Made by a program: the position numbers and the translations under genes. From Thermococcales archaeon 44_46 (GTDB lineage: Archaea > Methanobacteriota_B > Thermococci > Thermococcales > Thermococcaceae): a DNA stretch of 10,072 bases. Location of the stretch: NCBI GenBank assembly GCA_001507935.1, contig LGET01000044.1, forward strand, positions 1-10,072, given 5' to 3'. Of the stretch, positions 497 through 7,980 are shown one piece after another (the first letter of the stretch is position 1; every line of letters begins with the position of its first letter). The notes beneath the pieces are model-generated. The model ran no database searches, was not told where the DNA came from, and saw only the letters and a program-made list of their open reading frames with translations.

Positions 497-543
497 GCAG
501 AGAATATTTATACAACAAAGAACATTACAATATGGTGTTCGGC

Positions 544-2564
<2,021 letters not shown>

Positions 2565-2570
2565 AGATAA

Positions 2571-2620
2571 AACAGAAAAGTGGAAAAAGTATCTGTCTAT
2601 ATTTCTGTTCATTTTTCTTC
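2571..2620. terminator. Convergent-gene terminator region with inverted repeat
   Basis: Only 44 bases separate the racemase stop (2564) from the stop of the converging small membrane-protein gene (2609). AACAGAAA (2571-2578) and TTTCTGTT (2602-2609) form a perfect 8-base inverted repeat with a 23-base loop. On the plus strand it is followed by a T-rich tract (CATTTTTCTTCT, 2610-2621). On the minus strand T5 and T4 runs occur within the loop. U-rich tracts terminate archaeal transcription, so a bidirectional terminator is plausible. Confidence 0.35.
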
Positions 2621-2740
2621 TGACGCTTCTGATATGTGATAATACTTTTTTGCATAGTATTCAATGCTGTATGCCCAAAGGAAAGTTCCTATAACAACTA
2701 AGACAAAAACCACCCAAGTTGGGACGGTTGGCAGAGCCAT
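2609..2740 (-). CDS. Second miniature membrane protein of the NSS symporter operon
   Basis: 43 residues: a short N-terminus (MALPTVPT), one hydrophobic helix (about residues 9-25, WVVFVLVVIGTFLWAYS), then a Tyr/Lys-rich, charged C-terminus ending SEASEEK. It starts 3 bases after the stop of the other miniature gene, with GGAG-type bases of that gene's last codons (GGGGGAG, 2747-2753) acting as ribosome-binding site, so translation is probably coupled. The position directly behind an NSS-family transporter suggests a small accessory subunit, comparable to MetS, the small partner of bacterial MetP. This is inferred from size, topology and context, not from recognised homology. It is last in the operon and converges on the racemase gene. 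Confidence 0.6.
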   Translation of the reverse strand: MALPTVPTWVVFVLVVIGTFLWAYSIEYYAKKYYHISEASEEK

Positions 2741-2743
2741 CTT

Positions 2744-2857
2744 TCACTCCCCCAATGCCCTTATTATTTTTTCTCTTTTTATTGCTGCATACCAGGTGTA
2801 AAAGCCCAGAATCTGGAAGACGAAGGTCAGGACAAGGAAGATTACCCAAACTCCCAT
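2744..2857 (-). CDS. Miniature single-helix membrane protein, MetS-like NSS transporter small subunit
   Basis: 37 residues: MGVWVIFLVLTFVFQILGFY is an almost uninterrupted transmembrane helix, followed by TWYAAIKREKIIRALGE with positive charges that would sit in the cytoplasm. The start codon lies one base after the symporter stop (TGA then G then ATG). A strong GGAGGTGA site (2863-2870, minus strand) overlaps the end of the symporter gene, so translational coupling is almost certain. MetP of Corynebacterium glutamicum, also an NSS transporter, needs the small membrane protein MetS for function, and MetS-type small proteins accompany other prokaryotic NSS genes. A regulatory or stabilising subunit role is therefore the best guess. 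Confidence 0.72.
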   Translation of the reverse strand: MGVWVIFLVLTFVFQILGFYTWYAAIKREKIIRALGE

Positions 2858-2858
2858 C

Positions 2859-4343
2859 TCATTCACCTCCGCCTGTCATGTAATTAAGCACTCTGTTTAC
2901 TGACCAGTAGATTATTGCACCTCCAATGATCAACATCAGGAATCCTGGGAAGGTGTAGTAGGCGTGCAATCCAGCTCCCCATCCTTGCATCCACTCTTTG
3001 TACCCTATCCACCAGAAGAAGAACACCGCAGCTATGATGGGTAGTAGCTTCAGCTCTATATCCCACCATGAACCCAAGCGTATTAAGGGCTTTGGCTCCA
3101 CGGAGTTTATCTTTTCTCTTACTTCCCTTGCATTATGCCAGTAAGCCACAATTAGGGCAATGAACACTAGACCAACAGTAAGCCCTGCAATTCCCCACAC
3201 TGTGTCATAGTAGTCAAGCCAGTCTCTTGTACCTGGCATTGTTGTTGGAAGACCAACTATTGTCCAGATTAGACCGAAAATAAGGGCTGCCTTAGCCTTA
3301 GGCACTCCAAGATCCTTGTAAATCTTCGAACCGACATCCCAAATGGTTATATAGCTTGTGAACGCTGCAAACCAGAAGGCTGTGAAGAAGAGGACTGCAA
3401 ATGGCCATCCCCATGATTTTGGTGCTGTTGAAAGGAGCCTTGGGAGAGATACAAACGCCAATCCAGTTCCAGCCGCTTTGATATCCTCAAATGGAGTTGC
3501 CGAAAGGGCAAATATAATTGGGATAATAGCTAGCCCTGCAGTCCATCCAACTGCCGAGTCATTAGTTATATTCCCAAATGCCGCTAAAGTAACGTCATCT
3601 CTCTTTCTCATATAGGCGCCAGCGGTTATGAAGAACCCCCAAGCAATACCGGCACTCCATATAACCTGTGAGAGGGATTGCATCCAGGTGCTTGGATCCT
3701 TCAAAGCTTCAACTCTTGGGGTGTAGTAGAACTCTAAACCTTCCCTTGCCCCGGGCACTGTTAGGGCGTAGATACCCAAGATGATGGTGAATATATAGAG
3801 CAGCGGGAACATGGCTTTTGCAACTGTTTCAACTCCGCGAACTCCCTTTGAGAGAACTACCAGTCCCATAACAAACATAAGGATAAGGGCTACTAAAGCT
3901 GGTGTCTGATTGTAGATACTGTTCCAGAGGGCTAAAGCATCAAAGTCCGGTCTCCAGAAATATCCCGTCCATGAAAGTAGCATGTAAATGAATATCCATC
4001 CCACTACAACTCCATAGTAGGCATAGATAAGTGCTGTCGACCATGCCATCCACACGCCACCAAAACTTGCTAATTTCTTATGTCTCTTTGCGAAGTTGTA
4101 GGGACCAATTAAAACACCACCTTCACCATATTTACCAATAGCATACTCTGCAACAGCTGCTGCAAAGGCAAATACTATTAGCCAGACCAGGTATGTGAAG
4201 AGAAATGACCCACCACCGTAGTTTGCTGCCCTCCATGAAAAACGCCAGTAGTTCCCTGAGCCAACACTCCAACCTACTGCTGTCATTAATAGACCAAAAG
4301 TTGTAGCAAATTTCTCCAAACTACGACTTTTGAGTTCAACCAT
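2859..4343 (-). CDS. Sodium-dependent NSS (SLC6/LeuT-fold) family transporter
   Basis: 494 residues, about 12 hydrophobic helices. The first helix carries the NSS signature: VGSGNYWRFSWRAANYGGGS matches the LeuT segment around GLGN..RF. N31 corresponds to the sodium-binding Asn and R34 to the extracellular-gate Arg. The protein should import a substrate with Na+ across the cytoplasmic membrane. Next to racemase, Pyr2C reductase and HypD, proline, hydroxyproline or another imino acid is the likely substrate. Prokaryotic NSS members carry varied amino acids, so this is inference. Start ATG 4341-4343 has GGGGGG (4350-4355, minus strand) upstream as ribosome-binding site. The C-terminus ends MTGGGE, and those codons also hold the GGAGGTGA site for the miniature gene one base downstream. 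The gene is divergent from hypD. Confidence 0.9.
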   Translation of the reverse strand: MVELKSRSLEKFATTFGLLMTAVGWSVGSGNYWRFSWRAANYGGGSFLFTYLVWLIVFAFAAAVAEYAIGKYGEGGVLIGPYNFAKRHKKLASFGGVWMAWSTALIYAYYGVVVGWIFIYMLLSWTGYFWRPDFDALALWNSIYNQTPALVALILMFVMGLVVLSKGVRGVETVAKAMFPLLYIFTIILGIYALTVPGAREGLEFYYTPRVEALKDPSTWMQSLSQVIWSAGIAWGFFITAGAYMRKRDDVTLAAFGNITNDSAVGWTAGLAIIPIIFALSATPFEDIKAAGTGLAFVSLPRLLSTAPKSWGWPFAVLFFTAFWFAAFTSYITIWDVGSKIYKDLGVPKAKAALIFGLIWTIVGLPTTMPGTRDWLDYYDTVWGIAGLTVGLVFIALIVAYWHNAREVREKINSVEPKPLIRLGSWWDIELKLLPIIAAVFFFWWIGYKEWMQGWGAGLHAYYTFPGFLMLIIGGAIIYWSVNRVLNYMTGGGE

Positions 4344-4370
4344 TGATACCCCCCGAGAGAGCTCAGGTCT

Positions 4371-4433
4371 TAAAATAAAATACCCAAAGTAGACAACATA
4401 ACATAATTAAGTATTACGTTGATCTATATAAAG
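4371..4433. promoter_or_regulatory. Divergent promoter region between symporter and hypD
   Basis: CTATATAAAG (4424-4433) reads as a TATA box on the plus strand. It would start hypD transcription near 4452-4455. On the minus strand the same element reads CTTTATATAG, preceded by GCAAA, and would start the symporter about 60 bases before its ATG. A second minus-strand AT-rich element (GGTATTTTATTTTAAG, about 4369-4384) could give a shorter leader. Between them, 4394-4421 is an imperfect inverted repeat (CAACATAA... / ...TTACGTTG; 8 of the outer 10 positions pair), a possible shared operator. Confidence 0.5.
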
Positions 4434-4471
4434 TTTGCTTCCGATAGTGCTGTGTTGATGTTAAGGAGAAA

Positions 4472-6886
4472 ATAGAAAAAGAGTTAGAAAGGCGCAGAAG
4501 TTCTATAAGACCCATAAATGAGAGGGTTGCAAAGCTTAGAGAAGAAAGTGTAAATACTGCGGTCAAAATTTCCTCTGAAAGGGCCAAACTTATAACCGAA
4601 TTCTATAAGAGTGATCTGGCAAAGGGAAAATCAATCCCAGTTCAGAGAGCCCTTGCTTTTAAATATCTCCTTGAACACTGTAGCTTGCCTGTTGAGGATG
4701 GACAACTTATTGTAGGGCTTAGAGGCACTGGAGTTAAGGAAGTTCCCACTTATCCGGAAATCTGCGTACACAGCATGCAGGATCTTGAAATTTTAAACTC
4801 AAGACAAAACATGCCCTACAAAGTTGATGAAGAAACTAAAGAACTCTATGAAAAAGAGATAATCCCCTTCTGGAAAGGGCAAGCAATGAGGGATATAATC
4901 TTTGAAAATCTACCGCAGGAGTGGATTGACTGTTATGAGGCAGGCATTTGGACCGAGTTTATGGAACAAAGAGCTCCAGGACACACTGCAGGTGGAGAGA
5001 GAATATTCAAGATAGGCGTTTTGGACATTAAGGAAGAGATCAGAAAGAAAATGGAAGAACTCGACCCTAGCGATCCGGATTATTACGAGAAGATGGAAGA
5101 GCTCAAAGCCATGGACATCGCTGCAGATGCGATCTTAATCTACGCCCAGAGATACGCTGAAAAGCTGGAGAAAATGGCAGAAGAAGAGACTGACCCCAAG
5201 AGAAAGGAAGAACTAAAGCAGATGGCTGAGATATGTAAGTGGGTGCCTGCACATCCACCAAGAACCTTCTGGGAGGCCTTGCAGCACTACTGGTTCATAC
5301 ACGTGGGAGTTACCTATGAGACGAACCCATGGGATTCCTTTAACCCAGGAAGAATAGATCAGCATCTCTACCCCTTCTATAAGAAGGACATTGAAGAAAG
5401 CAAGCTCACGAGAGAAAAAGCAAAAGAGCTTCTCCAGTGCTTCTGGCTCAAGTTTAACAACCAGCCAGCAGTTCCAAAGGTTGGGGTGACTGCGGAGGAG
5501 AGCTTCACATACAACGACTTCTCAAAGCTCAACGTTGGTGGACTAAAGGAGGACGGCTCCGATGGAGTTAATGAGCTCTCCTATTTGATCCTCGAAGTCC
5601 TCGGCGAGATGAGGACTTTGCAGCCAAACACCGCCGTGCTGGTGAGCGAGAAAAATCCTGACCGCTTTCTCATTGAAGCCCTAAAGGTCGTAGGGCCGGG
5701 ATTCGGCGAGCCGCCGTTCTTCAACTTTGATGGAGTCATAGTAAAGATGCTCAGGCAAGGTAAGAGCCTTGAGGATGCGAGAACTTCGGGAGTTAGTGGC
5801 TGTGTAGAGAGCGGTGCCTTTGGAAAGGAAGCCTACATACTCACTGGCTACTTCAACCTGCCAAAAATCCTCGAGATAACCCTCAACAACGGTGTTGATC
5901 CAAGAACGGGCAAGAAGATTGGCCTTGAGACCGGCGATCCAAGAAACTTCAAGAGCTTTGAAGAGCTCTGGGAGGCCTTTATGAAGCAGGTGAAACACTT
6001 CATGGACATAAAAATGAAGGGCAACGACATAATTGAGACCCTATACGCAAAGTATCTGCCGGTGCCATTCATGTCTCTCTGGATAGAGGATTGCGTAAAG
6101 AACGCTAAGGACTACAACTGCGGGGGAGCTAGATACAACACTCAATACATTCAGGTAGTTGGGCTAGGAACTATAGCAGATAGCCTAGCCGCAATAAAGT
6201 ACCACATCTTTGACAAGAAGACGTTCACGATGGAAGAGCTTCTTGAGGCATTAAAGAACAACTGGAAGGGTTATGAACTTATGAGGGAAATACTCCGCAA
6301 TCCCGAGAAGACTCCAAAATTTGGAAATGACGATGACTACGTCGACGAGATAGCCAAGAGAGTCGTTGACGAAGTGGTCAAGCTCATCGAGAGTTATCCT
6401 CCTTCTCCAGTTAGGAAGGCCTCAAGAAGAGCCTACTTCCTCCCAACAACGGTTCACGTTTACTTTGGAAAAGTTACCGGAGCAACGCCCGATGGAAGGG
6501 AAGCAGGCTTTCCGGTTTCAGAGGGAGTGTCACCGGTCCAGGGGATGGACAGGAGGGGTATAGCTGCAGTGTTCAGGAGCGTTGCAAAGTGTGACTGGGA
6601 TAAGACGGGAGGAGCATTGCTAAACCAAAAGCTGACACCCGACCTCTTTGACAGTGAGGAGAACATCAAAAAACTGGCGCAGCTGATAAGGACGTTCTTT
6701 AGGCTTGGCGGCCACCATGTGCAGTTCAACGTTATAAGCGCGGAACTCCTTAGGGAAGCCCAAAGAAGACCTCAAGACTTTCAGGATTTAATGGTTAGAG
6801 TGGCAGGTTATAGTGACTACTTCGTAAACCTGCCCAAAGGGCTACAAGAGGAGATAATAAGGAGGACAGAGCACAAAGAACTCTAA
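4472..6886 (+). CDS. hypD: Glycyl radical enzyme, probable trans-4-hydroxy-L-proline dehydratase (5' end irregular)
   Basis: The frame gives about 804 residues, near the ~790 of clostridial HypD, which it resembles throughout. Numbered from codon 4472: thiyl-radical Cys C444 in SGCVESG, base E446, and glycyl-radical G779 in RVAGYSDYF near the C-terminus. HypD-like pocket segments are also present: TEFMEQRAPGHT and AYILTGY. The enzyme removes water from trans-4-hydroxy-L-proline to give pyrroline-5-carboxylate, anaerobically, after activation by the radical-SAM protein at 7069. hypD here is the dehydratase name, not the hydrogenase-maturation gene. Oddity: the frame is open from 4448, and N-terminal family sequence (RVAKLREESVNTAVKISSERAKL) is encoded before 4685. 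Yet no in-frame ATG, GTG or TTG occurs before TTG 4685, which is too far in. ATG 4458 (or GTG 4452) joins the frame only if one base is added in the A4 run 4469-4472. Another amino-acid or diol dehydratase is less likely. Confidence 0.85.
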   Translation: MEKELERRRSSIRPINERVAKLREESVNTAVKISSERAKLITEFYKSDLAKGKSIPVQRALAFKYLLEHCSLPVEDGQLIVGLRGTGVKEVPTYPEICVHSMQDLEILNSRQNMPYKVDEETKELYEKEIIPFWKGQAMRDIIFENLPQEWIDCYEAGIWTEFMEQRAPGHTAGGERIFKIGVLDIKEEIRKKMEELDPSDPDYYEKMEELKAMDIAADAILIYAQRYAEKLEKMAEEETDPKRKEELKQMAEICKWVPAHPPRTFWEALQHYWFIHVGVTYETNPWDSFNPGRIDQHLYPFYKKDIEESKLTREKAKELLQCFWLKFNNQPAVPKVGVTAEESFTYNDFSKLNVGGLKEDGSDGVNELSYLILEVLGEMRTLQPNTAVLVSEKNPDRFLIEALKVVGPGFGEPPFFNFDGVIVKMLRQGKSLEDARTSGVSGCVESGAFGKEAYILTGYFNLPKILEITLNNGVDPRTGKKIGLETGDPRNFKSFEELWEAFMKQVKHFMDIKMKGNDIIETLYAKYLPVPFMSLWIEDCVKNAKDYNCGGARYNTQYIQVVGLGTIADSLAAIKYHIFDKKTFTMEELLEALKNNWKGYELMREILRNPEKTPKFGNDDDYVDEIAKRVVDEVVKLIESYPPSPVRKASRRAYFLPTTVHVYFGKVTGATPDGREAGFPVSEGVSPVQGMDRRGIAAVFRSVAKCDWDKTGGALLNQKLTPDLFDSEENIKKLAQLIRTFFRLGGHHVQFNVISAELLREAQRRPQDFQDLMVRVAGYSDYFVNLPKGLQEEIIRRTEHKEL

Positions 6887-6928: not shown

Positions 6929-7052
6929 ATGTTCAAAAAGCTTGAGAACTATCATGTCCGAAAAAGAAATAAGGCACCCATTTGAGGAGGATTTAAGCTT
7001 TCTGTATGGGGCGATATTCATAGGAGAGCCGGAAGAGGAGGAGATAAGATAG
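6929..7052 (+). other. Candidate small gene in the hypD-activase spacer, broken across two frames
   Basis: GAGGTGA (6918-6924), a very good ribosome-binding site, precedes ATG 6929, but that frame ends after 18 residues (TGA at 6983). A second frame from ATG 6954 runs 32 residues to TAG at 7050 (starts MSEKEIRHPF, ends in an acidic EPEEEEIR). Removing one A from the A5 run 6961-6965 fuses them into a single 40-residue protein beginning MFKKLENYHVRKEIRHPFEE. I do not recognise the product. It could be a real small protein with a sequencing or natural indel, or a leftover of a larger gene. It would be co-transcribed with hypD and the activase. Confidence 0.3.
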
Positions 7053-7068: not shown

Positions 7069-7980
7069 ATGGTCAAGGGTATAATCTTTGATATAAAGCG
7101 CTATGCAATCCATGACGGCCCGGGAATCAGAACTACAATCTTTATGAAGGGCTGTCCGTTGAGGTGCTGGTGGTGTCATAACCCAGAGGGGATATCCCCA
7201 AAGCCGGATATCATGTACTTCAGCTTTAAGTGCATCCACTGCCACACCTGCGTTAAGGCTTGCCCCGAAAATGCAGTTAGCTTTGATGAAAACGAAACCC
7301 AACACATCGATAGAGAAGAGTGCACAGGTTGTGGGATTTGTGCAGAGCTTTGCCCAACGAATGCCCTAAGGCTTGTGGGCAAAGTTGTTACTGTGGATGA
7401 GCTCATTCGTGAGATTGAGAAAGACATTAAGTTCCATGACAGCTCTAATGGGGGAGTAACGTTCTCCGGCGGAGAACCCCTTTTTCAGCCAGAATTCTTG
7501 GAAGATATCCTCAAGGAGTGCAAGAAGAGGTACATTCATACAACAGTCGATACCTCTGGATACGCCCCAACAAGAATTTTGGAGAAGATACTCCCTTACA
7601 CAGACCTCTTCCTATATGACCTGAAACTTTTTGATGAAAAAGAACACATCAAATATACTGGAGTTCCAAATGAATTGATAAAGAAAAATTTAATTTTCCT
7701 TGTTGAAAAGAAAGCTAACGTAATCCTAAGGTTTCCAGTTATCCCAGGAATAACAGACACAGAATGGAACGTAAAAGGTTGGGCAAGATTCCTCTCGGAG
7801 CTTGACTTAAGTTCTATTCAAGAGATAGATCTGTTGCCATACCATGATGTTGGAGAGAAGTTCAACCGTTTGGGAAGGGAATACAAAATGGAAGTTCACC
7901 ACGCGCCATCTGACGAGACATTAAAGTGGATTAAGGAAGAATTTAAAGGCTTAGGACTCCAAGTCAAAATCGGTGGATAA
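7069..7980 (+). CDS. Glycyl radical enzyme activating enzyme (radical SAM), activase of HypD
   Basis: 303 residues. The radical-SAM cluster motif CX3CX2C is C29, C33, C36 (MKGCPLRCWWCHNPEG). Two bacterial-ferredoxin-type 4Fe-4S motifs follow: C55/C58/C61/C65 (CIHCHTCVKACP) and C85/C88/C91/C95 (CTGCGICAELCP), the insert typical of HypD, choline-lyase and glycerol-dehydratase activases but absent from PflA. The SAM-binding SGGEP is at 133-137. It cleaves S-adenosylmethionine and abstracts hydrogen from the glycine of the upstream enzyme (G779, codon 6806-6808). Start ATG 7069 has GGAGG (7057-7061) 7 bases upstream. It lies 182 bases after hypD with a U-rich hairpin and a small ORF between, and is presumably in the same transcript. 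The stretch 7621-7740 is strikingly AT-rich (34 G/C of 120) compared with 7141-7200 (32 of 60). Oxygen-sensitive, cytoplasmic. Confidence 0.93.
   Translation: MVKGIIFDIKRYAIHDGPGIRTTIFMKGCPLRCWWCHNPEGISPKPDIMYFSFKCIHCHTCVKACPENAVSFDENETQHIDREECTGCGICAELCPTNALRLVGKVVTVDELIREIEKDIKFHDSSNGGVTFSGGEPLFQPEFLEDILKECKKRYIHTTVDTSGYAPTRILEKILPYTDLFLYDLKLFDEKEHIKYTGVPNELIKKNLIFLVEKKANVILRFPVIPGITDTEWNVKGWARFLSELDLSSIQEIDLLPYHDVGEKFNRLGREYKMEVHHAPSDETLKWIKEEFKGLGLQVKIGG

Follow-up and report, generated by a model that had tools for sequence, protein, structure and literature searches.

We describe a hypD gene of the Thermococcales archaeon 44_46 that, on balance and judging from the sequence, has been cut from its start by a real and recent rearrangement. 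The gene lies in the window, by which we mean the whole 10,072-nucleotide stretch of contig LGET01000044.1 that was analyzed. Its frame (4448..6886, plus strand) lacks a start codon, probably because the place of the native symporter is now taken by a cassette with a different transporter.

An intact hypD frame without an ordinary start codon

The window gene encodes a predicted hydroxyproline dehydratase, HypD. Its product scored 1166.1 bits against the NCBIfam model NF043068 (trans-4-hydroxy-L-proline dehydratase; cut-off 1100) and matched Pfam PFL-like and Gly_radical, which upheld the identification made in a preliminary description of this DNA. H179, C452, E454, and G787 of the frame (the His, the Cys and Glu of CXE, and the radical Gly) align with H160, C434, E436, and G765, the residues named for the Clostridioides difficile enzyme in excerpts of PMC7077986.

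The frame is bounded by TAG at 4445-4447 and TAA at 6884-6886 and holds 812 codons from the first sense codon to the stop, with no internal stop. It is indeed open from 4448 with no ordinary start before TTG 4685..4687, as had been claimed; checked as a translatable gene with a start codon, hypD fell short, with 79 codons devoid of ATG, GTG, or TTG. Among 80 hypD loci, the window included, 78 have such a codon by residue 30 (partial loci, six in number, were removed before counting, as was anything on a list of 21 ids that are window copies or repeat, overlapping records of one relative); the exceptions are the window and L070. In L070, a Lokiarchaeia hypD, ATT stands at 4001-4003 where the near-identical L067, L071, and L073 have ATG, and the next ordinary in-frame start is a TTG at residue 75 in window numbering.

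We rejected TTG 4685 as the true start. Initiation there would remove 56 residues, and at 18 of these 56 positions a single residue prevails in 90% or more of 81 aligned sequences; a scan found no Shine-Dalgarno-like piece of 5 nt or more just upstream, and the C. difficile enzyme already aligns from residue 21. The conserved loss reported earlier is thus real, but it amounts to ∼56 residues and not ∼70, because the family profiles of HypD begin at residue 24 (about 4517). A start upstream of 4448 was rejected as well, since TAG 4445-4447 shuts the frame and the DNA there shows no homology to what natively precedes hypD. No second hypD copy, or hypD 5′ end, was found elsewhere in the organism's own genome assembly.

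We searched the frame for decay (stops, dN/dS, invariant columns) and saw none. Compared with hypD of G078, a Thermococcaceae genome of the same genus, dN was 0.023 and dS 0.78 (dN/dS about 0.03), and the window has no changes at columns otherwise invariant in the 81-sequence alignment, which omits loci matching only after residue 30 or ending before 790. By the usual marks of a pseudogene, then, the expression signal is disrupted, with the start and the native upstream region gone, while selection is not relaxed. These comparisons indicate that full selection on hypD either persists or ended only recently; given the lack of decay, the gene was broken not long ago or is still translated weakly from a non-standard start. 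Identity to the G078 gene is mosaic, varying between 75% and 100% when taken in 60-base steps along 4448-6886, which suggests past recombination.

Likeness to related loci ends at 4447/4448

hypD is present in 8 of the 94 genomes of the family, its own one counted. The G078 locus shares with the window the order of ornithine-cyclodeaminase-family gene (OCD), proline racemase, symporter (minus strand), hypD, second racemase, hypE, GTPase, and Lrp-type regulator, and its hypD is 87.9% identical in DNA to that of the window. The OCD gene is split over two frames in G078 (L097 3007-3995) and whole in the window (532-1521).

In three separate comparisons, the blastn match between the window and G078 began abruptly at 4448, and we place a breakpoint at 4447..4448. 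Downstream of it, likeness to the hypD loci of relatives sets in at once, with 67 of 69 nt the same as in G078 over 4448-4516 (2 differ); upstream lies unrelated DNA. The 104 nt above 4448 resemble the native upstream DNA of five relatives at chance level in a shuffle test, in which the score was reached by 207 of 500 shuffles for G078, 146 for G079, 142 for G082, 78 for G024, and 25 (borderline) for G083.

Of the seven other hypD loci in the family, six have a readable 5′ end (that of G085 could not be read), and in each of the six an ATG precedes window residue 1 by 6 or 7 codons, in frame. The G078 gene begins ATG-AGT-GAG, 6 codons above window position 4448, with a Shine-Dalgarno sequence, GGTGAT, 4 nt before the ATG. 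P0049, the closest protein found, does not differ from the window in the first 109 residues and has seven residues, MSETLSS, ahead of the window's first CC. Comparison with the hypD of relatives, which the preliminary description had called for, thus places the native ATG upstream of 4448, in the part that is replaced in the window. The native upstream DNA was not found elsewhere in the organism's own assembly (272 contigs, 79.23% complete, 1.08% contamination), and the junction was found neither in the other searched genomes nor in viral contigs; it is known from one draft contig.

The start had previously been sought just downstream of 4448. GTG 4452, ATG 4458, AAGGAG 4463-4468, the A4 run 4469-4472, ATA 4472, and TAG 4473-4475 all lie where they had been placed, and an out-of-frame mini-ORF (ATG…TAG, 4458..4475, plus strand) had been proposed to join hypD through an A lost from the run by sequencing error, which would make ATG 4458 the true start. 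One extra base would arithmetically make this join. However, the A-run is identical in G078, where translation from the upstream ATG passes through it in the hypD frame, so that an extra A would throw the G078 gene out of frame, and P0049 reads VDVKEKIEK in frame across the same run. These two sequences contradict a missing A at 4469-4472, and we give a sequencing error there next to no credence. The run once favored as the changed site thus carries the same letters, in the hypD frame, in relatives. A natural inactivating event was among the three options offered at the time and still stands, whereas its location in the A-run does not: everything upstream of 4448 has changed.

A different symporter cassette occupies the native site

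The segment 2573..4447 has no DNA match in the G078 locus and sits at the site of the relatives' native symporter. It encodes, on the minus strand, a transporter of the sodium:neurotransmitter-symporter family (2859..4343; Pfam SNF, 129.8 bits against a gathering score of 27) and two small ORFs seen in translation. One (2744..2857, minus strand, 37 aa, one membrane helix predicted by eye) presumably resembles the small subunits of such symporters; the other (2609..2740, minus strand, 43 aa) is also hydrophobic, and neither matched a Pfam family.

A symporter on the opposite strand precedes hypD in G078, G079, and G082. The window symporter has the place and orientation of this native gene but is only 32.8-34.1% identical to it (34% to that of G078). 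It was not found in the 93 other genomes of the family (E 1e-100) or in 114 other genomes of the class (E 1e-120), the source of the cassette was not found in viral contigs or plasmids, and a search of the organism's own assembly, at its 79.23% completeness, found the native symporter nowhere else. Among public contigs, with the 7998 candidates sharing most words scored, the exact symporter protein occurs on at least 40, the longest of 634,047 bases; aside from it, the top full-length relatives listed from those 7998 are 58-61% identical, the named ones being Sulfolobales and Thermoprotei. Codon usage of the cassette is like that of its neighbors (RSCU cosine 0.957; five others 0.889-0.942) and its GC content is ordinary (0.442). 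Together with the exact protein on at least 40 public contigs, these properties argue that the cassette is not stray DNA. Both of its flanks are syntenic on a single contig.

A racemase remnant and an intact hypE lie downstream

Between hypD and hypE, G078 has an intact 348-aa gene of the proline racemase family. The window holds a remnant of this second racemase gene (6929..7052, plus strand) with two internal deletions, of ∼627 and ∼297 bases relative to G078, and a broken frame; 36 residues match at 83%. The glycyl-radical activase gene hypE (7069..7980, plus strand) is intact and its product is 98% identical to that of G078. It scored 358.2 against TIGR02494 (glycyl-radical activase; cut-off 174.35) and 393.1 against the more specific model NF043069, below the cut-off of 425.

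Discussion

We propose that an ancestor resembling G078 had hypD divergent from a sodium symporter, with ATG-AGT-GAG 6-7 codons above the present 4448. Comparison with relatives shows that a cassette with a different symporter has replaced the native symporter, the intergenic space, and the first hypD codons. Lost with this exchange were the native hypD promoter region, the Shine-Dalgarno site, the ATG, and the 6-7 codons; the hypD frame, whole in other respects, now abuts foreign DNA that offers no in-frame start. The gene is probably silent or nearly so, with little or no translation. With its second racemase gene reduced to a remnant, this lineage may be in the course of losing its hydroxyproline module. 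The absence of decay in hypD, the presence of the four catalytic residues, and the intact hypE fit a recent break, but they fit a gene still in use equally well.

A local fault of assembly or consensus at the 5′ end of hypD, by which the cassette swap is real and the contig merely lost the start at the junction, is the rival that we take most seriously, although we think it unlikely. The draft state of the genome and the absence of the junction from every other searched genome and from the viral contigs would fit such a fault. Against it, the fault would have to delete the start and yet produce a sharp join where no long sequence is shared; the chance-level likeness of the 104 nt above the join to native upstream DNA of five relatives (borderline for G083, at 25 of 500 shuffles) and the synteny of both cassette flanks on one contig also count against it.

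We further considered that hypD is still made, either from ATA 4472..4474 (plus strand), a possible non-standard start in the hypD frame that follows GGAGAA, or from a leaderless-looking ATG 4458, the ribosome slipping by −1 on AAA ahead of TAG 4473. Purifying selection on a frame without decay would agree with this, as would the dispensability of the first 22 residues in the family, where many shorter homologs start with an ATG opposite residue 23; L070, an independent hypD, likewise has ATT in the start position. A TATA-like box had been described upstream, and it is present (4426..4431), but it matches the published Thermococcus consensus, TTWTAW, on the minus strand alone, toward the transporter; toward hypD, no TTWTAW occurs on the plus strand in 4344-4470. 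The orientation of the box is by itself weak evidence, because the minus-strand form, which reads ATATAA on the plus strand, also lies 25-30 nt ahead of the hypD ATG in G079 and G082. Were it active on the plus strand, it would put a start near 4454-4458, given that transcription starts of T. kodakarensis lie at a median of 23 bp below the TATA box according to excerpts of PMC4247193. The GGDGRD-type Shine-Dalgarno match (GGAGAA, 4465-4470) ends 1 nt before ATA 4472, as against 4 nt in G078, where the AAGGAG letters are plain Lys-Glu codons, and ATG 4458 meets TAG 4473 unless the ribosome slips. In the excerpted text of PMC5316973, 94.9% of leaderless mRNAs of T. onnurineus have ATG starts, and archaeal aIF1 is reported, in the part of PMC6237735 available, to discriminate against non-canonical starts. 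We hold continued synthesis by either route to be improbable.

If the rearrangement that we favor is real, a metabolic gene can lose its start through exchange of a neighboring transporter and for a time keep a fresh frame, and the lack of a start in a draft genome is not necessarily a homopolymer error. If hypD is translated all the same, the locus would offer a naturally occurring test case for non-AUG initiation or slippage in archaea; that the rearranged gene has been rescued in this manner, by initiation at AUA 4472 or by −1 slippage on AAA after a leaderless start at AUG 4458, strikes us as a long shot. In the open-licence PMC literature, we found no paper with both Thermococcus and trans-4-hydroxy-L-proline dehydratase.

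Xenologous replacement is the swapping of a gene in situ for a distant homolog. The symporter exchange proposed here shares with it the same transporter family, place, and orientation, at a divergence too great for orthology. Pseudogenes can arise by replacement of an upstream region, and in the window, too, the 5′ end of a neighboring gene is lost; unlike in such pseudogenes, hypD has not yet decayed. The G078 locus differs from the window in that its ATG and promoter region are intact, the native symporter is in place, the second racemase is whole, and two extra genes follow hypE. Among known enzymes, the best PDB match to the window protein is HypD of C. difficile (structures 6vxc and 6vxe; NF043068). 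As in HypD as known, the active-site Cys, Glu, His, and Gly are all present, and a gene that scores as a glycyl-radical activase, though below the cut-off of the more specific model, lies close by; the window gene differs in having no usable start codon, the 6-7 N-terminal codons of the thermococcal form being gone.
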